The notes beneath the pieces were generated by a model. It did not search any database, was not told the origin of the DNA, and saw nothing but the letters and a program-made list of their open reading frames with translations. Of a stretch of DNA of 64,000 nt, positions 29,074-40,343 are shown piece after piece; the stretch's first letter is position 1; each line of letters begins with the position of its first letter. The DNA comes from Desulfovibrio gilichinskyi (lineage in GTDB: Bacteria; Desulfobacterota; Desulfovibrionia; Desulfovibrionales; Desulfovibrionaceae). Position numbers and translations under genes: made by a program. The stretch lies in assembly GCF_900177375.1 (NCBI RefSeq), contig NZ_FWZU01000002.1:558001-622000 (forward strand). Direction: 5' to 3'.

Positions 29074-30213
29074 ATGATTGGAGATGATTTCGCTGAACTG
29101 AAACTGTTCATTACCGGACCTATTATGCTGCGCGACGAAGTTCGCAAAGCTGCTTTATTGCCTGAATTCGGTCATCGCGACTCTGAAAACATCAAGCGTT
29201 TCGGCTCCATCATGAGCAATCTCATGACGATTGCCGGAAACCCTGAAGGATATACTCCTATCATATTTAATGGGTCTGGAACGAATGTGCTTGAAGCTTC
29301 AGTCCGTTCACTTGTTTCGGATACCGATAAAGTCCTCAATGTCTCGGTTGGAGCATTCGGTGATCTTTACGGTAATCTGTCTGCTGCTAACGGTAAGAAT
29401 CTTGTTTCGCTAAAATTTCCATACGGCAAAGCCATTGATCTCAAAGTTCTTGAAGAATATTTGATTAAGCATAAACCGCAGGTGGTAACTTTCACTCATA
29501 ATGAAACATCAACAGGTGTTATTAATGATGTTGTTGCTGTTTGTAAAATTATCAAAGCTCACGGAGCTTATGCACTTGTAGACGGTGTAAGCATCTTCGG
29601 CGGAACTGATTCGACTATCGGTGAAGCCCGTCCTTTAATGTACTGTACCTCCACTCAGAAATCACTTGGGCTTCCGGCAGGATTCGGTATCGGCTATGTT
29701 AATGACGAAACACTCGAAAAGGCTGCCGGAGTTCAAAACAGAGGATACACAACCGATATTCTGGCTCAAATTGAAAAAGCAAGGTTGTGTCAGACTTTAA
29801 CAACTCCTAATGGAACTCTCAGCAATCAGATGTGTGTACAGCTGGATTACATTGTTAATACAGAAACAGTTCCAGTAAGGTTCAAACGGCACGAGGAAAT
29901 GCGCAAAATTGCGCACGACTGGGTTGATGGGATGAATGGCTATGAGCTGTTTGCACAGGAAGGATACCGTTCGCCAAGCGTGACAGCTGTTAAGACAGCA
30001 GCTTACATGACAATTGACCGCTTAAAAGAAGTGAAAGAGCTTATGCGCGGGCATGGTTATTTATTTGATCCAGGTTACGGTAAAATTAATAAAGAACTAC
30101 AGGATCAGGGCGAATCTCCCATATTCAGGATAGGGCACATGGGAGATATTATGCCGGATATGCTTAAAGATTATCTGAAAATTCTTGGAGAAGTCCTCAG
30201 TACTTTTGAATAA
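29074..30213 (+). CDS. Class V aminotransferase (alanine-glyoxylate / serine type)
   Basis: A PLP enzyme of 379 residues. The Schiff-base Lys is in CTSTQKSLGLPAGFG, the cofactor ring contact is Asp in AYALVDGVSIFGG, and FNGSGTNVLEASVRSL forms the phosphate-binding loop. The family includes alanine-glyoxylate, serine-glyoxylate and serine-pyruvate aminotransferases and phosphonate enzymes. Specificity cannot be read. It diverges from the 2-hydroxyacid dehydrogenase; if that enzyme makes glyoxylate, this one could turn it into glycine. That link is inference. GAGG lies 8 bases before the ATG, and a terminator follows. Confidence 0.83.
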   Translation: MIGDDFAELKLFITGPIMLRDEVRKAALLPEFGHRDSENIKRFGSIMSNLMTIAGNPEGYTPIIFNGSGTNVLEASVRSLVSDTDKVLNVSVGAFGDLYGNLSAANGKNLVSLKFPYGKAIDLKVLEEYLIKHKPQVVTFTHNETSTGVINDVVAVCKIIKAHGAYALVDGVSIFGGTDSTIGEARPLMYCTSTQKSLGLPAGFGIGYVNDETLEKAAGVQNRGYTTDILAQIEKARLCQTLTTPNGTLSNQMCVQLDYIVNTETVPVRFKRHEEMRKIAHDWVDGMNGYELFAQEGYRSPSVTAVKTAAYMTIDRLKEVKELMRGHGYLFDPGYGKINKELQDQGESPIFRIGHMGDIMPDMLKDYLKILGEVLSTFE

Positions 30214-30239
30214 TTAGTATTCAGTCTTTAATGATAAGG

Positions 30240-30276
30240 CCCTGAATTCGTTTTTTGCGAGTTCAGGGTTTTTTTT
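30240..30276 (+). terminator. Terminator of the aminotransferase gene
   Basis: CCCTGAA-T-TCG pairs with CGA-G-TTCAGGG around a T-rich loop, followed by eight T residues. Confidence 0.88.
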
Positions 30277-30509: not shown

Positions 30510-30563
30510 TTGACACAGGATTTGATGAAGAATAATGTCTATTTTCCGACTGAGTGCTCAGTC
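30510..30563 (+). promoter_or_regulatory. Promoter and TetR-type operator of the SulP/signalling operon
   Basis: TTGACA (30510-30515) and TAATGT (30533-30538) are 17 bases apart. Ten bases further, GACTGAG-TG-CTCAGTC (30548-30563) is a perfect 7-base inverted repeat placed at the expected transcription start and 22 bases before the regulator's ATG. This is the classical place for a TetR-family autorepressor to bind. Confidence 0.65.
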
Positions 30564-30585
30564 AGTTTTTCTATATGGAGGAATG

Positions 30586-31179
30586 ATGACTAAAATGTCC
30601 AAAAAAAAGGCTGCTATTTTGGAAGCGGCAACCGTGCTTTTCGCGAACAAAGGGTTTGCTGATACTTCAATGAGTGAACTTGCGAGCATGACCGGAGCAG
30701 CTGAAGGGACAATCTTTTATCATTTTAAAAATAAGGAGCAGCTGCTCCTTACTATTTTGTCTGCGACAAGGGACAGCATTCTGGAAGAATTCAATGCGCA
30801 TATGGAAGAGCGCGAATTCAAAACCGGAATGGAAATGATGGAAGAGGTCGTTGTTTTTTACCTTCTCCTCGCCGGACGAATGGAACATCAATTCCTTCTT
30901 CTGCATCGGCTTTTTATATATCAGCTGGCAGAAAGCAGGACGGAATTCAGAGAAAATCTGGAGGATATTTATAATTGTCTGGTGACTCTTTTTGAGCAGG
31001 CAATTGTACGAGGACAGGAAGATGGTTCCATCGGTGATGTGAAGCCTAGAAAAAGTGCACTCATTGTTTTCACGATGGTCGATGGCTTGGTGAGATTCAA
31101 AAATTTTAACCTCTATGATGCGGGGGCTCTGTTCAATGAACTTATTGAGTCCGTTCGTAGAATGTTGAAATCAAACTAG
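30586..31179 (+). CDS. TetR/AcrR-family transcriptional regulator
   Basis: A 197-residue regulator. The N-terminal helix-turn-helix has AAILEAATVLFANKGF and GAAEGTIFYHFKNKEQLL, the TetR signature. The C-terminal two thirds are a helical ligand domain with no obvious family match. Several ATGs are possible. I take 30586, with GGAGG 4 bases upstream, while 30583 and 30595 are alternatives. It is the first of seven genes on one strand, and the palindrome overlapping its promoter suggests it represses the operon. Its inducer may be the substrate of the SulP permease next to it. Confidence 0.87.
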   Translation: MTKMSKKKAAILEAATVLFANKGFADTSMSELASMTGAAEGTIFYHFKNKEQLLLTILSATRDSILEEFNAHMEEREFKTGMEMMEEVVVFYLLLAGRMEHQFLLLHRLFIYQLAESRTEFRENLEDIYNCLVTLFEQAIVRGQEDGSIGDVKPRKSALIVFTMVDGLVRFKNFNLYDAGALFNELIESVRRMLKSN

Positions 31180-31192
31180 AGGTGTTTATCTG

Positions 31193-33328
31193 ATGCTTAC
31201 ACGAATTTTTCCTTTTTTAGGCTGGTTTGATAAATACAGCAATACAGCATTAAGGGCCGATATTATCTCCGGCCTGACGGTTGCGCTTGTACTTATTCCC
31301 CAGTCGATGGCATATGCCCAGCTTGCCGGGATGCCTGCATATTACGGTTTGTATGCTTCGTTGCTGCCGCCTCTGGTCGCAGCTCTATTCGGCTCAAGTC
31401 GTCAGTTGGCAACCGGTCCTGTTGCCGTTGTTTCGCTTATGACTGCCGCTTCTCTTGAACCTTTAGCTACAGCCGGCAGTCCAGGATTTATCGCTTATGC
31501 ACTGCTGCTGGCTCTGCTCGTAGGGGCTTTCCAGTTCCTTTTAGGCGTGCTTCGTCTCGGGCTTGTTGTTAACTTCCTGTCTCATCCGGTCGTTAACGGT
31601 TTTACTAATGCTGCTGCGATTATTATTGCGTCTTCACAGCTTTCAAAAATGTTCGGTGTTTACGTAGATAAAGCATCGTTGCAGTATGAAACCATCATGC
31701 GCGTTGTCAGCAGTGCAATGCATTACAGCCATTTGCCGACACTCGGTATGGGGGTATTGGCATTTGCCATTATGATGGGACTCAAAAGATTTAATCCTAA
31801 AATACCTAATGTCCTTTGCGCGGTTGTCATCACAACGGTACTTTCGTGGGCAACAGGTTTTAATCATGATGCAAAAATCAATATCTCTGCGATTCAGGAT
31901 ACAAAAGCACAGACTTTGATTACTGAATTTAATGAGACAGTAAGAGGCATTGAGCAGCTTGCCAAAAAGCGCACGGATATTTCCGTAGCTGAAGACTCTG
32001 CGAAAAGCTCAAAAAATGTTATCGGGTATTACGACGCTGAGCATGACCTTAACGTTGTTGCCTATGAATCAAAGCTTCTTAATCATAAATCACATTTATA
32101 CCGTGAAGAACTTAGAAATATGCTTTTCAGCGGTGTGGCACAGGCTGACGGTACTATTAATTATTACCTGCGCGGTGCTGTTCCTGCCGGTATGACCAGT
32201 GACGGGCGTACTTGGCGTATCAAGGTCGGAAATAAAATTCTAAATCCGGAATCACTTACAATGATGGGTGGAGGTGCTGTTGTCGGCAATGTTCCTTCAG
32301 GATTCCCGCCTATCGTCATTCCGAATCTTGATATCAAAGTAATTCTTAAGCTTCTTCCTTTCGCGATTATCATTTCTTTGCTCGGTTTTATGGAAGCTAT
32401 CTCCATTGCTAAAGCAATGGCAGCTAAAACTGGACAGCGTCTTGATCCTAATCAGGAACTTATCGGTCAGGGGCTTGCTAATATGCTCGGTGCCTGTACC
32501 AGCAGTTATCCCGCATCAGGCTCTTTCTCGCGTTCTGCAGTTAACCTGCAATCCGGCGCGGTGACAGGACTTTCAAGCGTTTTCACTTCGCTTGTAGTTG
32601 CCGTTACGTTGCTGTTTTTCACCCCGTTGTTGTATCATCTCCCTCAGGCTGTACTTGCTGCGGTTATTATGATGGCCGTTATCGGTCTTATCAATGCATC
32701 AGGTTTCCTGCATGCATGGAAAGCGCAGAAGTTTGACGGTGCTATCTCAGTAATATCATTTCTCGCAACTCTTGCATTTGCTCCTCATCTGGACAAGGGT
32801 ATTATTATAGGAGTAACTCTGTCACTGGCAGTGTTTCTGTATAAGAGCATGCGTCCCCGTGTTGTCGCCCTTGCCAACAGTGATGATTATGTTTTGCGTG
32901 ATGCCAGTTTGCATGGACTCAGGGAATGCGCGCATATGGCAGTTGTCCGTTTTGACGGTCCTCTGTTTTTTGCCAACGCAAGTTTTCTTGAAGAGCAGAT
33001 TGCGAGACGGCTTAGAGAAAAGAAAGATCTCAATCATCTTATCTTGGTCTGCAACGGAATAAACGATATTGATGCATCAGGGGAAGAAGCTCTTTCTCTT
33101 GTTGTGGAAACTGTTCGCAGTGCCGGTGTGGATATCTCGCTTTCCGGAATCAATGAAGCGGTGCTGGCAGTCTTGAAACGCACGCATCTTTATGAAAAAA
33201 TCGGAAAAGAAAATATTTATTCAAATACTGAAAAGGCACTTTGTCAGACTCATGAGAAAGCTCATCGTGACGGTACTGAACCTAATTGCCCTCTTTCAGA
33301 TTATTGTAGCATACACAGCAACTCCTAA
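31193..33328 (+). CDS. SulP-family anion permease with STAS domain and a large loop insertion
   Basis: A 711-residue secondary transporter. Core SulP motifs are VALVLIPQSMAYAQLAG, QLATGPVAVVSLM and FPASG-like SYPASGSFSRSA. The C-terminal STAS domain (about 550-680) has the IDASGEEAL loop. Between two core helices, residues 224-368 hold about 130 extra residues, polar and charged and probably extracytoplasmic, where SulP proteins normally have a short loop. The last 30 residues contain two Cys in PNCPLSDYCS. Substrate may be sulfate, bicarbonate or another anion. It sits 13 bases after the tetR stop. Confidence 0.87.
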   Translation: MLTRIFPFLGWFDKYSNTALRADIISGLTVALVLIPQSMAYAQLAGMPAYYGLYASLLPPLVAALFGSSRQLATGPVAVVSLMTAASLEPLATAGSPGFIAYALLLALLVGAFQFLLGVLRLGLVVNFLSHPVVNGFTNAAAIIIASSQLSKMFGVYVDKASLQYETIMRVVSSAMHYSHLPTLGMGVLAFAIMMGLKRFNPKIPNVLCAVVITTVLSWATGFNHDAKINISAIQDTKAQTLITEFNETVRGIEQLAKKRTDISVAEDSAKSSKNVIGYYDAEHDLNVVAYESKLLNHKSHLYREELRNMLFSGVAQADGTINYYLRGAVPAGMTSDGRTWRIKVGNKILNPESLTMMGGGAVVGNVPSGFPPIVIPNLDIKVILKLLPFAIIISLLGFMEAISIAKAMAAKTGQRLDPNQELIGQGLANMLGACTSSYPASGSFSRSAVNLQSGAVTGLSSVFTSLVVAVTLLFFTPLLYHLPQAVLAAVIMMAVIGLINASGFLHAWKAQKFDGAISVISFLATLAFAPHLDKGIIIGVTLSLAVFLYKSMRPRVVALANSDDYVLRDASLHGLRECAHMAVVRFDGPLFFANASFLEEQIARRLREKKDLNHLILVCNGINDIDASGEEALSLVVETVRSAGVDISLSGINEAVLAVLKRTHLYEKIGKENIYSNTEKALCQTHEKAHRDGTEPNCPLSDYCSIHSNS

Positions 33329-33340
33329 TGGAGGTTGAAG

Positions 33341-34555
33341 ATGTCTGATATACTTTTATTCAGCGGCCTGTTTTGTCAGGCTGAGTCTGTTGTCAAACGG
33401 TTGCTTGATGATACCCGTTGCAGTCTGATTACTGATTCGGATATTGTTGCAGAAGCTGCAAAGCTTAGCGGAATGTCTGAAAAAGCAATTGCGAAAGCTT
33501 TCGTATCAAAAGGTTCTATTTTCAATAAATTCAATCATGAAAAAGAAAGATCAGTAGCATGGCTCAGGCTTGCCTTGGCTGAAAAATTGGTCAAGGGTGA
33601 AGCTCTGCTTGTGTCGGGATTTTCAGCACAGCTGCTTTCTCAGTCTATTTCGCACGTTCTTAAAGTCTGCATTATTGATGATGTGCATAAGAGAATTGAA
33701 GTTGCACGAAATGAAGAAGGGTTTTCCGAAAAAGAAGCTATCAAGGCAATGCAGCGTAGTGATGAAGAGAGAAGTGTATGGGTAAAAGAACTCACAGGTG
33801 AAAAAGATCCCTGGACAAGTTCTCTGTACGATATGGTTGTTCCTGTCGATAAAATAGGTGTTGATGAGTCTGTTGCTCTCATTAAAGAACAGCTTGGAAA
33901 TGCGGCTGTTCAGATTACTGATAATTCCAGACAGGAAGCTCTTGATTTTCTTCTTGCTGCCAAGGTTGAAACAGCACTTGTCACCAAGGGGCACAACGTT
34001 GAAGTTTCGGCTAAAGCCGGAAATGTTGTGTTGACCATTAATAAAAAGGTGTTGCTGGTTGATCGTCTTGAAAAAGAATTGGTAGAACTAACGCAGCCGC
34101 TTGACGGTGTTGAAAGCGTTGAAGTCACTTTCGGGAAAGATTTTTATTCCCCCGATATTTACCGTCGTATGGATTTTGAATTGCCGTCAAGAGTTCTGCT
34201 TGTTGATGACGAACGTGAGTTTGTTCAGACTCTTTCTGAAAGATTATTAATGCGCGATCTCGGTTCGCACGTTGTTTATGATGGTGAATCCGCGCTTGAT
34301 ATAGTGAAAGACGACGAGCCTGAAGTAATGATTCTTGACCTGAAAATGCCCGGAATTGACGGCATTGAAGTGCTGCGCAGGGTTAAAGCCAGCAGACCTA
34401 ATATTGAGGTTGTTATCCTTACGGGGCATGGATCTGACCAAGATAAGAAAGTGTGTATGGAACTCGGAGCGTTTGCCTATTTGCATAAACCTGTAGATAT
34501 AGAAGTTCTCAGTTTAACACTTAAAGAAGCTTACGCAAAAATTCGCAAAGCTTAA
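33341..34555 (+). CDS. Cytidylate-kinase-like / BON-like / receiver fusion protein
   Basis: A 404-residue protein with a rare architecture. Residues 1-190 resemble the cytidylate-kinase-like family (PF13189): an LLFSGLF strand in the P-loop place, the AFVSKGSIF and ARNEEGFSEKEAIKAMQRSD lid region and a terminal WTSSLYDMVVPVDKIGVDE. The glycine-lysine P-loop is missing, so kinase activity is doubtful. Residues 195-265 form a small alpha-beta unit of BON/HMA appearance. Residues 284-404 are a receiver (VLLVDDERE, Asp333 in ILDLKMPGIDG, Thr in LTGHGSD, HKPVD). The ATG at 33341 has GGAGG 6 bases upstream. Confidence 0.75.
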   Translation: MSDILLFSGLFCQAESVVKRLLDDTRCSLITDSDIVAEAAKLSGMSEKAIAKAFVSKGSIFNKFNHEKERSVAWLRLALAEKLVKGEALLVSGFSAQLLSQSISHVLKVCIIDDVHKRIEVARNEEGFSEKEAIKAMQRSDEERSVWVKELTGEKDPWTSSLYDMVVPVDKIGVDESVALIKEQLGNAAVQITDNSRQEALDFLLAAKVETALVTKGHNVEVSAKAGNVVLTINKKVLLVDRLEKELVELTQPLDGVESVEVTFGKDFYSPDIYRRMDFELPSRVLLVDDEREFVQTLSERLLMRDLGSHVVYDGESALDIVKDDEPEVMILDLKMPGIDGIEVLRRVKASRPNIEVVILTGHGSDQDKKVCMELGAFAYLHKPVDIEVLSLTLKEAYAKIRKA

Positions 34556-34577
34556 CTTAATCTATCCGGGGTAGGCC

Positions 34578-36317
34578 ATGTCACTTAAAGGACTTCTTCG
34601 ACCGGAATTCTGGAACGCGGATAAAAAAACTGCGGGACCGTATAAGAGTTTATTTGATTACAAGCGCATCTGGCAGCTGTGCTTTGCAATTCTTGTTGTG
34701 GTTTCGCTGGTTCCGTTGTTCATCTTGGCCTTTATAGATTTTAATGTCACCCGGGTAGCTATTAAGTCTGAAAATATGCTCCGAGGGGCGAGGACGACCT
34801 CAAATACCCGAAGATCAGTCGCTTACTTTCTTGAGGAGCGGAAATCAGCTTTGCAGTTAATTGTAAAGCTTGATGATTTCCGCTCCCTGCCGCGAAAAGA
34901 ACGGCTTGGAGAGATGCTGAGCGCACTTAAAAACAGTTTCGGCGGTTTTGTTGATCTGGGTATTATCGATGAAAACGGTAAGCAGCTTGCCTACGTCGGC
35001 CCCTATAATCTGGAAGGAAAAGATTATAAGGGGCAGGCGTGGTTTAAGCAGGCCTCGGATCAGGGAACATACATCAGTGATGTTTTTCTGGGATTTCGCG
35101 ACAGCCCCCATCTTGTTATTGCCGTAAAGCATTTTATTGATGACGTTCACTACAAAATTTTCCGTGCAACTCTTGATACAACAGAGTTCAACGGGATTCT
35201 TTCGTCGCTTGATCTGTCCGCCGGGGCGGATGCTTTTCTTGTGAATTCTTCCGGTATTATTCAGACTCCTTCCAAATGGAATGGAAAAGTTTTTTCAAAA
35301 ATGTCTTTTCCGCTGCCGGAAAAATCATTCAGGACCAAGGTGAAAGAACTTACGCTTGAAAAAGATTTGCGGGCGATTGTAGGCTATGCGTATATTGAAG
35401 GAACTCCTTTCATTATTATGGTAGTTAAGCCGGAAGCTGAACTTATGGAAGCATGGCGGGAGTCCAGGGACACACTTACATGGATATCGACAATCAGTGT
35501 GGCTGTGATTCTTTTGGTTATGTGGGGAGTTGCTTCTTATATGGTTGAACGGATCTACATGGCAGACATGACCAGATCAAAATTATTGCAGAAAATGGAG
35601 CACCACAACCGTATGGCTTCAATTGGAAGGCTGGCGGCAGGAGTTGCTCATGAGATTAATAATCCTCTGGCGATAATTAATGAAAAGGCCGGTCTTTTAA
35701 AAGATTTGTTTACATTTAATAAAGCATATGAAGCAGATGCCAGAGTTCTAGGAATTGTAGATTCCGTTATAAATTCTGTTGAAAGATGCGGCAGAATTAC
35801 TAAACGACTCCTCGGATTTTCACGGCAGGACGATGTTGAACTTAGACCGGTTCTTCCACAAAAAGTAGTTGAGACAGTGCTCAGTTTTCTTAATAAGGAA
35901 GCGGAATATCGCAGTATCAATGTTACGGTTGATGTGGAAAATGGCATTTATGAGATTGTAACTGATCGGGGCAAGCTCGAGCAAGTTCTGCTTAACCTCA
36001 TAAGTAATGCTTTTCAGGCTATGAAAGACGGTGGATCTTTACTGATAAAGGTCGGACGCGGTGAAGAAAATCGAATAGATTTTTCAGTTAAAGATGACGG
36101 ATGCGGTATACCTGCCACAGATCTTAAACGTATCTTTGAACCTTTTTATTCTACTAAAAAGCAGACAGGCGGGACAGGACTTGGTCTTTCTATCACGTAT
36201 GGACTGGTTCAAGACCTCGGTGGACAAATGACTGTTAAAAGTGAACTAGGCGTAGGGACTGAATTTTGCTTTTCAATTCCTGTGAATCCTATAGCTAAGG
36301 AGGAAAGCCGGAAATGA
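34578..36317 (+). CDS. Cache-domain sensor histidine kinase
   Basis: A 579-residue membrane kinase. TM1 is about 34-54. The extracytoplasmic double-Cache-like sensor (about 60-295) has VDLGIIDENGKQLAYVGPY and YISDVFLGFRDSPHLVIAV. TM2 is about 302-322. HisKA with GVAHEINNPLAIINEKAG (His358) follows directly without HAMP or PAS. The HATPase has an N box (NLISNAFQAM), G1 (DDGCGI) and G2 (GGTGLGLSIT). It overlaps the next receiver gene by ATGA. Cognate receivers are probably the three encoded in the same operon. Confidence 0.9.
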   Translation: MSLKGLLRPEFWNADKKTAGPYKSLFDYKRIWQLCFAILVVVSLVPLFILAFIDFNVTRVAIKSENMLRGARTTSNTRRSVAYFLEERKSALQLIVKLDDFRSLPRKERLGEMLSALKNSFGGFVDLGIIDENGKQLAYVGPYNLEGKDYKGQAWFKQASDQGTYISDVFLGFRDSPHLVIAVKHFIDDVHYKIFRATLDTTEFNGILSSLDLSAGADAFLVNSSGIIQTPSKWNGKVFSKMSFPLPEKSFRTKVKELTLEKDLRAIVGYAYIEGTPFIIMVVKPEAELMEAWRESRDTLTWISTISVAVILLVMWGVASYMVERIYMADMTRSKLLQKMEHHNRMASIGRLAAGVAHEINNPLAIINEKAGLLKDLFTFNKAYEADARVLGIVDSVINSVERCGRITKRLLGFSRQDDVELRPVLPQKVVETVLSFLNKEAEYRSINVTVDVENGIYEIVTDRGKLEQVLLNLISNAFQAMKDGGSLLIKVGRGEENRIDFSVKDDGCGIPATDLKRIFEPFYSTKKQTGGTGLGLSITYGLVQDLGGQMTVKSELGVGTEFCFSIPVNPIAKEESRK

Positions 36318-36667
36318 AAATTCTACTTGTTGATGATGAGCTTGAGCTTGTTTCCGCTCTATCGGAACGACTTTCGTTTAGAGGTTTTGACGCAGAATGG
36401 GTCACAAGCGGTGAAGAAGCTATAGCAAAAGTAAATACTTCGAAATATGATCTGGCGATACTTGATGTGAAAATGCCGCGAATCAGCGGTCTTGAACTTC
36501 GTAAGGAACTCGAAAAAATATGTCCGTCCCTTAAGTTTATATTCCTTTCCGGTCATGGCTCGGAGGATGATTACTACGAAGGATCTTCCGGCGCAGATTG
36601 TTATTTGATCAAGCCTGTTAAAATTGAAAACCTTGTTGAAAGAATTAATATTGCTTTAGGTCTTTAA
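36314..36667 (+). CDS. Single-domain response regulator
   Basis: A 117-residue receiver: ILLVDDELELV, phospho-Asp in LAILDVKMPRISG, Ser in IFLSGHGSED and Lys in YLIKPVKI. It starts within the stop of the Cache kinase gene, so the two are translated together and are the most probable cognate pair. It is close in sequence to the receiver of the kinase-like fusion and to the one at 37367-37795 (all share the ERLxxR segment near the start), which suggests local duplication. Confidence 0.9.
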   Translation: MKILLVDDELELVSALSERLSFRGFDAEWVTSGEEAIAKVNTSKYDLAILDVKMPRISGLELRKELEKICPSLKFIFLSGHGSEDDYYEGSSGADCYLIKPVKIENLVERINIALGL

Positions 36668-36688
36668 TAATTTCAGTAGGAGAGTATC

Positions 36689-37321
36689 ATGGGGTCAACT
36701 GAGAATGTTCCTTGTCGGGAAGGGCTTTGTTTTTTCGGTAGGGTGAGTGCCATAATTTCTCATGATGTTAAAAATGTTCTGGCAATTATCAACGAGGAAG
36801 CCGGACTCCTGCAGGATTTATCGCTCATGGCCGCGCAGGGGATGGAACTTGCCCCTGAAAGGCTTGTCAAACTTGCTGAAAAGATACAGAAACAGATTAA
36901 GCGTGGCGACTTGATAATCAAGAATATGAACAGGTTCGCGCATAGCGTTGACGTTTCGGAATGTGAAGTTGATTTAAATGAAACTCTTGCGCTGATAATT
37001 GCTCTTTTTACAAGAGTATCCGCCTCAAAATGTGTTACTGTTCTTCTTAAGGAAGGCGAAAAGGTAACAGTAAAATGTGATCCTTTTTCAGTTGAAATGC
37101 TTATTGCCGGATGTTTGGAAATATGCATGGACAGTGCCGGAAAAAACAGTGAAATAACAGTTGAAGTTTTACAGAAAAATAGCGAAAAGGTAATCGCTGT
37201 CAGCGGCCTTGAGCATGATGTTGCAGAAGAAAAATTTCAGGCAATAGAATCGATGGCAACAGGCATTAATGTATCTGTTAAGATAAAGCCTCAGGATAAA
37301 GTCTTAGAAATTATCTTTTAA
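36689..37321 (+). CDS. Degenerate histidine-kinase-like protein (H-box, no intact ATP site)
   Basis: A 210-residue soluble protein. RVSAIISHDVKNVLAIINEEAG (first 20 of it are residues 18-37) resembles the H-box of the kinase just upstream, with His25 in the phospho-site. The second half has the length and strand pattern of an HATPase domain, but the N box reads LEICMDSAGK without the Asn, and no G1 or G2 glycine boxes are present. It probably cannot bind ATP and may act as a dimerising phosphotransfer or scaffold protein, like Spo0B. GGAG lies a few bases before the ATG. Confidence 0.6.
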   Translation: MGSTENVPCREGLCFFGRVSAIISHDVKNVLAIINEEAGLLQDLSLMAAQGMELAPERLVKLAEKIQKQIKRGDLIIKNMNRFAHSVDVSECEVDLNETLALIIALFTRVSASKCVTVLLKEGEKVTVKCDPFSVEMLIAGCLEICMDSAGKNSEITVEVLQKNSEKVIAVSGLEHDVAEEKFQAIESMATGINVSVKIKPQDKVLEIIF

Positions 37322-37366
37322 GTGTTGAAAGTTTATACTTAACTCTTAATTCAGTTGGAGAAAGCC

Positions 37367-37795
37367 ATGGCGGAAAAAGTACTATTAGTCGACGATGAAA
37401 AAGAATTTGTGGAAGGCCTTGCTGAACGCATGGAACTTCGTGGAATGAATGTAAATACATGCACAAATCCCCAAGACGCTCTCGAAATGGTAAATAGTGA
37501 TTCATACGATGCTATTATTTTAGACTTACAAATGCCCGGTATTGACGGGATTGAAGTTCTTAAACATATCAAAGAAAGTAAACCTGAAATGCAGGTGATT
37601 CTTTTAAGCGGACATGCCACAGTTGAAAAAGGCATTGAAGCTATGAAGCTCGGTGCGATGGACTTTGTCGAAAAACCGGCAGATATTAATGTTCTTATTG
37701 ATAAAATTAAAAAAGCTCAGGCTCGGAAAATGATTCTGGTTGAAAAAAAGACCGAAGAAAAAGTGAAGGATATTCTGGAGCATCAGGGCTGGTAG
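37367..37795 (+). CDS. Response regulator, receiver with C-terminal helical extension
   Basis: A 142-residue protein. The receiver has VLLVDDEKEF, phospho-Asp in IILDLQMPGIDG, Ser in LLSGHAT and Lys in FVEKPAD. The last 25 residues are a charged helix (RKMILVEKKTEEKVKDIL). I start it at MAEKVL, with GGAG 6 bases upstream. It is the last gene of the TetR-SulP operon, 45 bases after the degenerate kinase and before a strong terminator. Confidence 0.9.
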   Translation: MAEKVLLVDDEKEFVEGLAERMELRGMNVNTCTNPQDALEMVNSDSYDAIILDLQMPGIDGIEVLKHIKESKPEMQVILLSGHATVEKGIEAMKLGAMDFVEKPADINVLIDKIKKAQARKMILVEKKTEEKVKDILEHQGW

Positions 37796-37817
37796 TAAAT
37801 ATTTTTGCTGTTCTATA

Positions 37818-37863
37818 AAAATGCGGTGAAAACTTTATATAAAAGTTTTCACCGCATTTTTTT
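37818..37863. terminator. Bidirectional terminator between the signalling operon and hypF
   Basis: AAAATGCGGTGAAAACTT and its complement flank a short loop, giving a long stem with A/T flanks on both sides. It ends two convergent operons. Confidence 0.9.
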
Positions 37864-37940: not shown

Positions 37941-40343
37941 TTAATCAGTGCTTTCAATGTTAAGCATTTGCTGACCGTATACCGCCTGTCCTAAAGATAT
38001 GCATGCATCACTTGGCGGTAGAACTCTGTGAACCAGCGGAGTTAAACCCCTTTTGCAAAGCTCTGAGGGAAGTTCAACTGCAAGTGTTAAATTCTGCATT
38101 ACTCCGCCGCTTAGTCCGACGGTTTTAATACCCGTCTGCTTTGATATTATTTCAGCGCAATCAGCCAGCCCTGAAATTAAACCTTTGTGAAATTTACGGC
38201 TGATTATTCCGGACGAAACTCCTGCTACATAATCGCTGTATGCCTGTTTGAAAAGCTCACCAGTGCAAATTTCTATCAGGTCGTTTGTATCATCATTTAA
38301 AGAATTCCCTGATATTTTTTTGACAGGGCATATATATTGTCCGCGTTCACCTAGATCCTGAATTTTTTCCAGAATTATAGCGGCTTGACCTTCATAGGTA
38401 ATTGTACTGCAAAGCCCGAGCATTGCAGAGATTGCATCGAAAAGCCTGCCGCAGCTGCTTGTTGAAGGGCAGTTAATATCCTTATCCAGCATTTGATCCA
38501 GCATCTTTGCACCCGCACTGAATTTTTCAGGAAGCGGCAGTCGCTCTGCATCGATCCCCAGGTCGCGTGCGGCTCCTCTTGCTATTCTCCACGGTTCACG
38601 CACGGCAGCCTCGCCGCCGGGCAGTCTGAGATGAGTAAATCTGGCCAGCCGTTTATTTTTAAGTTTTTCATTATCAATAAATAAACACTCTCCGCCCCAG
38701 ATGGTGCGATCCTCACCGAGTCCTGTGCCGTCCAGAGCAAGTCCTATAGCCGGACCGGAATGCTTATTTTCAGCTAAAACTGAATAAATATGGGCATAAT
38801 GATGTTGCAGCGAGGTGGTTGGAATTTCTTCTATTTTTCCTATCTCAGAGGCCAGTTCCGTGGTCATGTAATCAGGGTGAAGATCATGCACAATAAGCTT
38901 TGGTTTAACCTGTAATATATTTTGCAGATGCAAACGTATTTCTTTCCAGAATTGCAAGGTTTCGAGGTTTTGCATGTCTCCGATATGCTGACTTGAAAAT
39001 GCCTGATCACCTTTTGTTATACATAATGTATTTTTAAGTTCAGGGCCTGTCCCAAGTACGCATGGTCCGCTCTTTGCGAGAAATACAGGGGACGGCGTGT
39101 AGCCTCGGGCTCTGCGCATAAAGACTGTTCTGAAATCAGTTCCGGCAGATTGAGCTTCAACTTTTTCGGCCTGTTCGCTGTTGAATTCAGGTACTGAGCG
39201 GGCTACAGAATCATCCACACGGATAAGGATATCCCGATTGTGGAATAGAAAAATATCGGCAATATCCGGCAGTCTTGTTAATGCTTCGCGATTACCTATG
39301 CAGATAGGTGCGGAGCTCATGTTGCCGGAAGTCATGACCAAAGCCGCCGGAGACGGTTTCAGCTTGGAAAAATGTTTAATCAGAACATGGTGCAGCGGAG
39401 TGTATGGAACCATCAGGCCGATAAAGTCTGTGTCCGGAGCAATCTCTGAAGCAAGCGGATAATTTGAACTTTTAGGAGCAAGAACTATGGGGCGTTGTAT
39501 ACCTTCTAAAAGTTCATGATCATTTTCTGAAAGATCAGCAATTTTATCAGCTTCAGCCATGTCTTTTACCATCACCGCCAGCGGTTTGTCCGGACGGTTT
39601 TTCCGCTCTCTAAGAGTCTGTACTGCAGTAGAATTTGACGCGTCACATACAAGGTGAAAGCCGCCGAGTCCTTTAACCGCGGCAATTTTACCTTCGGCTA
39701 AAAATTCTGCCAGTTTTACAATACCATTATCTATTCCTTCGAACTCATGGCCTTTATTATCTGTCAGCCATACTTTCGGACCGCAATCTTTACAGGCATT
39801 TGGCTGGGCATGAAATCTGCGATCAAGTGGATTTGTATATTCTTCGCTGCATTTTTCGCAAAGCGGAAAACAAGACATTGATGTTACAGGGCGGTCATAA
39901 GGAATTGATCGCGTTATTGTGTAACGCGGTCCGCAGTTTGTACAGTTGGTGAACGGATATTCATACCTGCGGTTATCTGGATCGTTCATATCATTAAAAC
40001 AATCAGGACATGTTGCCACATCAGGGCTGATCAGAACGCAATGTCCTTCCCCTGCAGTACTGGAGAGAATGCAGAATTCTGTCTCATCGTTTATCAGTTC
40101 AATTTTTTTTTCTTGCAGAGATACAATTCGGGCCAGTCGCGGAAGATCTTCTTTTAACGCTTTGTCAAAATTTTCATGATTACAACAGTCACCTTGAATC
40201 TCGATCAGCACTCCTTCGGGGCTGTTACGCACAGTGCCGGACAGTTTACACTTAAGCGCGGTTTTGTAAATAAAAGGTCTGAACCCTACGCCTTGAACTT
40301 GTCCTGTGATGGTGAGTATTCTACGTGAAAGACAGTAGGTCAT
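37941..40343 (-). CDS. hypF: Carbamoyltransferase HypF ([NiFe] hydrogenase maturation)
   Basis: An 800-residue enzyme that turns carbamoyl phosphate into the thiocarbamate precursor of the cyanide ligands of [NiFe] hydrogenase. Domains in order: acylphosphatase (GQVQGVGFRPFIY, residues 14-26), two zinc fingers (CPDCFNDM...CTNCGPRYT and CEKCSEEY...CKDCGPK), a YrdC-like domain (AAVKGLGGFHLVCDA), and a Kae1-like domain with QHHYAHIYSVLAEN and GLALDGTGLGEDRTIWGGE. It is full length. It is last in the run TauE-membrane protein-DUF362-hypF, 52 bases after DUF362. The other hyp genes seen are 22 kb away. Confidence 0.95.
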   Translation of the reverse strand: MTYCLSRRILTITGQVQGVGFRPFIYKTALKCKLSGTVRNSPEGVLIEIQGDCCNHENFDKALKEDLPRLARIVSLQEKKIELINDETEFCILSSTAGEGHCVLISPDVATCPDCFNDMNDPDNRRYEYPFTNCTNCGPRYTITRSIPYDRPVTSMSCFPLCEKCSEEYTNPLDRRFHAQPNACKDCGPKVWLTDNKGHEFEGIDNGIVKLAEFLAEGKIAAVKGLGGFHLVCDASNSTAVQTLRERKNRPDKPLAVMVKDMAEADKIADLSENDHELLEGIQRPIVLAPKSSNYPLASEIAPDTDFIGLMVPYTPLHHVLIKHFSKLKPSPAALVMTSGNMSSAPICIGNREALTRLPDIADIFLFHNRDILIRVDDSVARSVPEFNSEQAEKVEAQSAGTDFRTVFMRRARGYTPSPVFLAKSGPCVLGTGPELKNTLCITKGDQAFSSQHIGDMQNLETLQFWKEIRLHLQNILQVKPKLIVHDLHPDYMTTELASEIGKIEEIPTTSLQHHYAHIYSVLAENKHSGPAIGLALDGTGLGEDRTIWGGECLFIDNEKLKNKRLARFTHLRLPGGEAAVREPWRIARGAARDLGIDAERLPLPEKFSAGAKMLDQMLDKDINCPSTSSCGRLFDAISAMLGLCSTITYEGQAAIILEKIQDLGERGQYICPVKKISGNSLNDDTNDLIEICTGELFKQAYSDYVAGVSSGIISRKFHKGLISGLADCAEIISKQTGIKTVGLSGGVMQNLTLAVELPSELCKRGLTPLVHRVLPPSDACISLGQAVYGQQMLNIESTD

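Follow-up and report, generated by a model that had tools for sequence, protein, structure and literature searches.

A conserved SulP permease operon of sulfate-reducing bacteria with a predicted TetR operator and a proposed phosphorelay

What connects an anion permease with a sensor kinase, three receivers and a kinase-like protein devoid of an ATP site, and how could such a set act on transport when its receivers carry no DNA-binding domain? Both questions are raised by a locus of Desulfovibrio gilichinskyi that lies within a stretch of 64,000 nucleotides (contig NZ_FWZU01000002.1, positions 558,001 to 622,000; hereafter the window, to which unprefixed coordinates refer). The host genome measures 3.96 Mb and carries aprA. 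Seven open reading frames, all on the forward strand, span positions 30586–37795 and show the expected Pfam families. They encode, from A to G, a TetR protein, a SulP permease, a pseudokinase-REC fusion, a Cache histidine kinase, a REC protein, an ATP-dead kinase and a second REC protein. With corrected starts, the successive gaps between them are 13, 12, 22, −4, 21 and 45 nt. The operon is set apart from the upstream gene by that gene's terminator-like site (30236–30272, forward strand; 16-pair stem and T run), and a terminator hairpin ends the unit (37817–37861, forward strand; stem of 20 bp with a T run, z −9.1). The candidate promoter, TTGACA-N15-AATAAT at 30510–30536 of the forward strand, was spotted by eye; it is absent from the promoter-scan list, the scan permitting spacings of 16–18 nt only. 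Judged from spacing and conservation, the prediction that genes A to G form one transcription unit is supported. The preliminary description had placed seven same-strand genes behind one promoter/operator, and the reading frames, the Pfam families and the terminator-like sites at both ends agree with it. The borders of the operon are marked by two genes that we take, from their sequence, to be an aminotransferase-like gene (29074–30213) and HypF (37941–40343). The first is present in 15/15 same-genus loci and the second in 11/15, and each is found in 0/39 of the other family loci.

Gene A (30586–31179, forward strand) encodes a TetR-family repressor (TetR_N, PF00440, E = 3.7e-15). Its start is more likely to be 30586, where GGAGG immediately precedes it, and this places a palindrome between promoter and start. 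This putative TetR operator, ACTGAGTGCTCAGT (30549–30562, forward strand), lies just 3′ of the candidate promoter and is the sole exact site in the genome. Its inner part, CTGAGTGCTCAG (30550–30561), is the only perfect match to its pattern within the window; when one mismatch is allowed, the window holds 2 matches against ~1.5 expected by chance. The 14-bp site ACTGAGNNCTCAGT has one exact copy in the genome plus 3 sites at one mismatch (control pattern, 1). A palindrome of the form CYGAG-N2-8-CTCRG occurs within 130 nt 5′ of tetR in 48/49 loci, window included, and in 91/4709 control tiles, which include real sites; it begins 16–45 nt before the tetR start in 45 of the 48 loci that have one. 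The single exact palindrome in the genome and its conserved position 5′ of tetR therefore suggest that TetR is probably a dedicated autoregulator of its own operon, acting through the predicted operator, and the operator anticipated in the preliminary description is supported by these 48 loci. At least two operator-like matches, overlapping and distinct ones counted together, were seen within 250 nt 5′ of tetR in 29/49 loci.

The arrangement is not confined to this genome. Of 199 family genomes, 58 carry the N-terminal part of gene C, and they represent 14/44 genera. We examined 55 family loci, one per genome and with the window included; three of the 58 genomes, which have only a distant stand-alone homologue, were excluded. 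The order A-B-C-D-E-F is held in 48/55 family loci, and G adjoins F in 41 of these 48. In six of the 48 operons gene G was not found at the locus, and the seventh (L057) has only a distant, non-adjacent G-like reading frame. The six operons without receiver G at the locus (L043–L048) belong to one genus (g25). The other seven family loci comprise five with a C homologue and no SulP, and two that are cut by contig ends. These five C homologues (L054, L055, L056, L058 and L059; 42–47% identity) lie away from SulP, some of them near other kinase genes. Outside the family, the order recurs in NaphS2 (L098; the contig starts after A) and in a MAG (L099), and the gene-neighbourhood search thus finds it both in the family and beyond. 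Among 20 loci picked around C from elsewhere in the phylum, which NaphS2 indicates to be Desulfobacterota, SulP adjoins C in 15, and one of the other five is cut by a contig end; one phylum locus (L112) has no D gene in the run. Motif counts given below as fractions of 50 refer to the window, 47 family loci, L098 and L099.

Gene D (34578–36317, forward strand) encodes a membrane Cache sensor histidine kinase with an intact ATP site (dCache_1, HisKA, HATPase_c); the H-, G1- and G2-boxes are kept in 50/50 orthologues and the N-box in 49/50. Genes E (36314–36667, forward strand; PF00072, E = 7e-23) and G (37367–37795, forward strand, start corrected to ATG 37367; PF00072, E = 5.5e-32) encode single-domain receivers, in which the acidic pair, the phosphoacceptor Asp and the Lys are kept in 49/49 and 43/43 sequences, respectively. 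Left out of these alignment counts were the E of L052, which forms the end of an over-extended reading frame of 550 aa, and the distant G-like reading frame of L057. No DNA-binding domain was detected by Pfam on the three window receivers (C, E and G). Aligned to the window starts, the orthologues measure 116–126 aa for E and 141–144 aa for G, and at these lengths they are too short for a DNA-binding domain. As described earlier, the operon thus has three receivers with intact sites, a single ATP-competent kinase (D), and no DNA-binding output besides TetR. The pattern of the receiver α1 helix was considered as a marker of partnership and rejected as undiscriminating: it is common to 49/50 C, 45/49 E and 42/43 G sequences, and is also carried by 89/135 other receivers from the loci retrieved, a control set in which sister clusters and operons beyond the 50 are represented as well.

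The third receiver forms the C-terminal part of gene C (33341–34555, forward strand, start corrected to ATG 33341), which combines a PF13189-like pseudokinase, a BON-like region and a REC domain (PF13189, Cytidylate_kin2, E = 3.4e-17; PF00072, E = 2.3e-25). All 19 of the gene C homologues searched match the PF13189 profile, and none of three P-loop patterns was found in the first 60 residues of any of 50 orthologues, while the catalytic residues of REC (acidic pair, phosphoacceptor Asp, Lys) are kept in 50/50. The label "BON-like" has weak support. In the structure model (pLDDT 86.8) the region has the order helix-strand-strand-helix-strand, which is compatible with BON, but the BON profile (PF04972) gives weak matches in only 3/19 homologues, the best at E = 0.016. 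The 50 matches listed in a fold search were all receiver-bearing, which makes the search uninformative on the N-terminal half. Stand-alone PF13189-type proteins of ~275–300 aa, homologous to the N-terminus of C, were seen in many phylum genomes, for example at C5:275106-275879 (within L066), and in some genomes as tandem pairs.

We propose that gene F (36689–37321, forward strand) encodes a dimeric histidine phosphotransferase made of a DHp and a CA-like domain. In the window protein only HisKA is matched (E = 5e-5, below the Pfam cut-off), and HisKA is the sole signalling family found in F members (42/45). The H-box, H-[DE]-x-x-N, is kept in 50/50 orthologues with an invariant phosphoacceptor His. 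The ATP motifs are lost: N-box and G2-box are each present in 0/50, a G1 pattern in 2/50 and an F-box pattern in 3/50. The structure model (pLDDT 93.2) shows a DHp hairpin and a CA-like domain in a kinase fold and matches histidine kinases, and an alignment of F with kinase D shows the lid region to be missing from F. No Pfam match was found to ChpT, to Spo0B (families that are presumably HPTransfase and SPOB_a) or to other phosphotransferase families, and neither protein is among the best 50 of 919 structural matches. Along the helix following the His, D and F of the same operon are identical at H+7, H+11, H+14, H+15 and H+18 in 47–50 of 50 pairs, and alike at H+8 in 19/50 and at H+12 in 3/50. 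Agreement at the other five of these positions is shared with kinases of the sister clusters described below. The control kinases were four, one of them the D of a truncated operon, and then 16 and 30, many of them D orthologues and from other families; because these controls are few or D-like, the match between D and F is only suggestive.

An H-box kept in all 50 orthologues together with the loss of the N- and G2-boxes points to a phosphotransferase, or to a phosphatase. The E/DxxN that follows the His is a phosphatase motif of HisKA kinases, and because H-[DE]-x-x-N is kept throughout F, a phosphatase role retains a share of the probability. The strongest alternative to a relay is that F serves as a phosphatase or phosphoryl sink and that the three receivers buffer or branch the signal of a single kinase, and the ratio of three intact receivers to one ATP-competent kinase agrees with it. 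We consider this alternative unlikely, though serious. The phosphoacceptor His of F is invariant; moreover, Spo0B passes phosphoryl groups between receivers, as we propose for F, and the series E-F-G resembles Spo0F-Spo0B-output, which counts against a mere sink. The PhyT/SdrG relay of Sphingomonas bears on both sides of the matter: PhyT, formerly PhyP, was initially taken for a phosphatase and turned out to be a phosphotransferase with no phosphatase activity in vitro (PMC5898713). A lost ATP site combined with a kept His is a trait of both ChpT and PhyT, and we therefore read F as a phosphotransferase. Like ChpT (PMC3433190), F has a DHp hairpin with the phosphoacceptor His and a CA-like domain from which the usual ATP lid is missing; unlike F, ChpT is a cell-cycle protein of Caulobacter, and the two share no family-level sequence match. 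The PhyT/SdrG relay runs from a kinase through a single-domain receiver and a degenerate-kinase phosphotransferase to a regulator acting by protein contact, as proposed here, although PhyT itself differs from F in being membrane-bound with a putative sensor domain, and the output of its relay is a sigma-factor mimic (PMC5898713). As far as its sequence and model indicate, F is probably a ChpT/PhyT-like phosphotransferase rather than merely a decayed kinase, and by analogy it may work like ChpT even though it is not classed as a member of the ChpT Pfam family. The term "degenerate kinase" used for F in the preliminary description is thus apt for the lost ATP motifs and falls short with respect to the conserved H-box. 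Likewise, the branching or buffering suggested there is matched by the count of three receivers and one kinase, but buffering by itself fits less well than a phosphorelay, since F keeps the H-box and loses the N- and G2-boxes.

Gene B (31193–33328, forward strand) encodes a SulP/SLC26 permease of 711 aa with a STAS domain (PF00916, E = 8e-103; PF01740). Hydropathy and alignment place a hydrophilic insertion of ~130 residues near 226–358, which separates the family match into two halves; no hydrophobic segment was seen in the insertion of the window protein by hydropathy. Among proteins of solved structure, AtSULTR4;1 is the nearest relative. Residues Q37, Y41, A78, E401, S444, F445, S446 and R447 of gene B are invariant in 13/13 aligned SulP sequences and match Q112, Y116, A153, E347, S390, F391, S392 and R393 of AtSULTR4;1, respectively, which are tied to sulfate and proton in the structure paper of that protein. 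The PXYGLY motif is incomplete, reading AYYGLY in the window; at the proline position the orthologues, window included, have Ala in 39/50 and Pro in 11/50. This replacement of the proline has been discussed as lowering trafficking and raising affinity (PMC5840216). The length of ~710 aa, the insertion and a PXYGLY proline replaced mostly by Ala or Ser are features of SulP group Ci of Marietou et al. 2018 (PMC5840216), which differs in having an extra helix counted in the insertion, where the window protein has no visible one. A term search of the text of that paper, as far as available, returned none of histidine kinase, response regulator, two-component or TetR. A CPL-x3-C tail following STAS (33278–33307 in the window) aligns in 50/50 SulP sequences, with the exact spacing E-x2-CPL-x3-C in 43/50, and could serve in metal binding or a redox response.

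Given the incomplete PXYGLY motif, gene B is a probable rather than an established sulfate:proton symporter, or importer of a close oxyanion. The permease might instead carry another anion, such as bicarbonate, dicarboxylate, thiosulfate or oxalate, which the signalling proteins would then serve. The substrates of SulP proteins are hard to deduce from sequence, oxalate is a competitor in AtSULTR4;1, the BicA and DauA models also match gene B, albeit below their own cut-offs, and the PXYGLY Pro is replaced by Ala. We nevertheless judge this improbable, as the best solved relative transports sulfate, the site residues are invariant, and the operon is associated with aprA-bearing genomes and has sister clusters built around a DASS permease. 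REC-fused C occurs in 50/395 phylum genomes (best E < 1e-60), and aprA is over its cut-off in 45 of these 50 as against 114/345 other phylum genomes (Fisher P = 7e-15, a value that ignores kinship); a few of the aprA states were inferred from E-values. The C-bearing genomes without aprA over the cut-off are G240, G285 (a partial match), G336 (not among the matches listed), G388 and G542.

The sister clusters hold a related kinase/REC/F set together with a PF00939 (DASS, sodium:sulfate-type) permease at L113, L126, L134, L135 and L146; at L113 and L146 the same run also includes SulP and C. Where tested by Pfam, a sigma-54 activator is present in five sister loci (L113, L126, L129, L134 and L135) and a CBS protein in three (L113, L134 and L146). 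A PF02579 NifX-like protein is found in four, namely in L113 and L146 and, below the cut-off, in L126 and L134. It is by these proteins and by the DASS permease that the sister loci differ from the SulP operon, and no TetR-model match is listed in them. A published cluster (PMC11887813) joins a DASS permease to two-component genes and CBS proteins, and the five loci resemble it in their Cache-type kinase, receivers, F-like protein and PF00939 permease; from this composition we infer that they correspond to the published DASS cluster. In D. autotrophicum, HRM2_40360 (SulP) and HRM2_40290 (DASS) are both reported to be highly expressed at high sulfate. If its locus tags step by ten, the two genes are seven tags apart, which equals the SulP-DASS spacing in L113 and L146, and we regard the likeness of this pair to L113 and L146 as a lead. 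Elsewhere in the D. gilichinskyi genome, histidine kinases and receivers occupy a stretch of 30 kb (C1:83569-114301; L148, L149), together with two TauE/SafE-family permeases, a DASS permease, a SulP of 543 aa and two PPDK_N/PEP-utilizer proteins.

The claim that no system of this composition had been described is wrong. A sulP cluster with two-component genes, a Cache kinase, TetR and a 16-bp palindromic operator was reported in 2025 in Science Advances for Desulfobacteraceae and Dv. salexigens, along with a DASS type, the Cache kinase being common to both (PMC11887813). The window operon fits it, having SulP, TetR, Cache kinase and receivers in one run and a palindrome 5′ of tetR. Because both cluster types, the Cache kinase, TetR and the operator are reported there, the operon is one of an already described kind. 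In the accessible parts of the main text, the lack of an ATP site in F, the C fusion and the receivers free of DNA-binding domains are not discussed, and a term search of that text returned none of phosphorelay, receiver, pseudokinase or cytidylate; nor does it set out a step-by-step phosphate relay for this cluster. Across the open-licence literature and this main text (its supplement aside), as far as available, we found no account of F as an ATP-dead phosphotransferase, of the pseudokinase-REC fusion or of the DNA-binding-free receivers. The available parts of a fitness paper on D. vulgaris (PMC10102598) hold nothing on SulP, and those of PMC2702500 nothing on the operon.

The model of PMC11887813 is one of sulfate sensing, in which regulators called WalR-type bind the promoter. 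According to its text and a figure legend, the set would thus be an ordinary two-component system in which a response regulator, once activated, binds to the promoter of sulP in a PhoRB-like manner. We hold this to be very unlikely for the window operon, where the three receivers lack a DNA-binding domain and the E and G orthologues are too short for one, although a promoter-binding regulator could still come from outside the operon. That the permease and the signalling genes are chance neighbours forming separate units is scarcely credible: certain loci do hold C or relay genes without SulP, yet gaps of −4 to 45 nt, a single operator, terminator-like sites flanking the unit, and an order kept in 48/55 family loci and in other families all argue against it.

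With moderate confidence, we therefore read the locus as an uptake operon of sulfate reducers for sulfate or a close oxyanion, with TetR autorepression, Cache kinase D, a phosphorelay via F and a protein-contact output on transport. We infer that there is a relay and that it acts on the permease, and the proposed steps are as follows. TetR would repress its own operon through the palindrome and so set the level of expression. Kinase D would sense an extracytoplasmic small molecule, for which sulfate is suggested in PMC11887813, and phosphorylate a receiver, either E or the REC domain of C. F, as an ATP-dead DHp protein, would then hand the phosphoryl group to another receiver, which would be G or C. 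Since DNA-binding domains are missing from the operon's receivers, protein contact is the most likely form of output; it might be made on the STAS domain of SulP or via the pseudokinase-BON-REC fusion C, and it would tune transport activity after TetR has fixed expression.

The operon is conserved and functionally coherent, and it is the phosphorelay interpretation that deserves a test. Dissimilatory sulfate reduction begins with the uptake of sulfate, and a 2018 paper states that the uptake proteins of these organisms had not been identified in any study (PMC5840216). A wider proposal is tentative, and we give it limited credence: a dedicated phosphorelay without a DNA-binding receiver would lead from the Cache kinase through a receiver and the ATP-dead phosphotransferase to output receivers acting directly on the permease (on the SulP STAS, via C), and a related relay, shared with the unrelated DASS permease and its CBS protein, would mean that the entry step of sulfate respiration is controlled post-translationally across the phylum. 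Should the relay hold true, the promoter-binding picture of PMC11887813 would be in question, the operon's own receivers having no DNA-binding domains, and the tuning of uptake would acquire named parts that can be tested, namely an intermediate receiver, an output receiver and a contact between output and permease.
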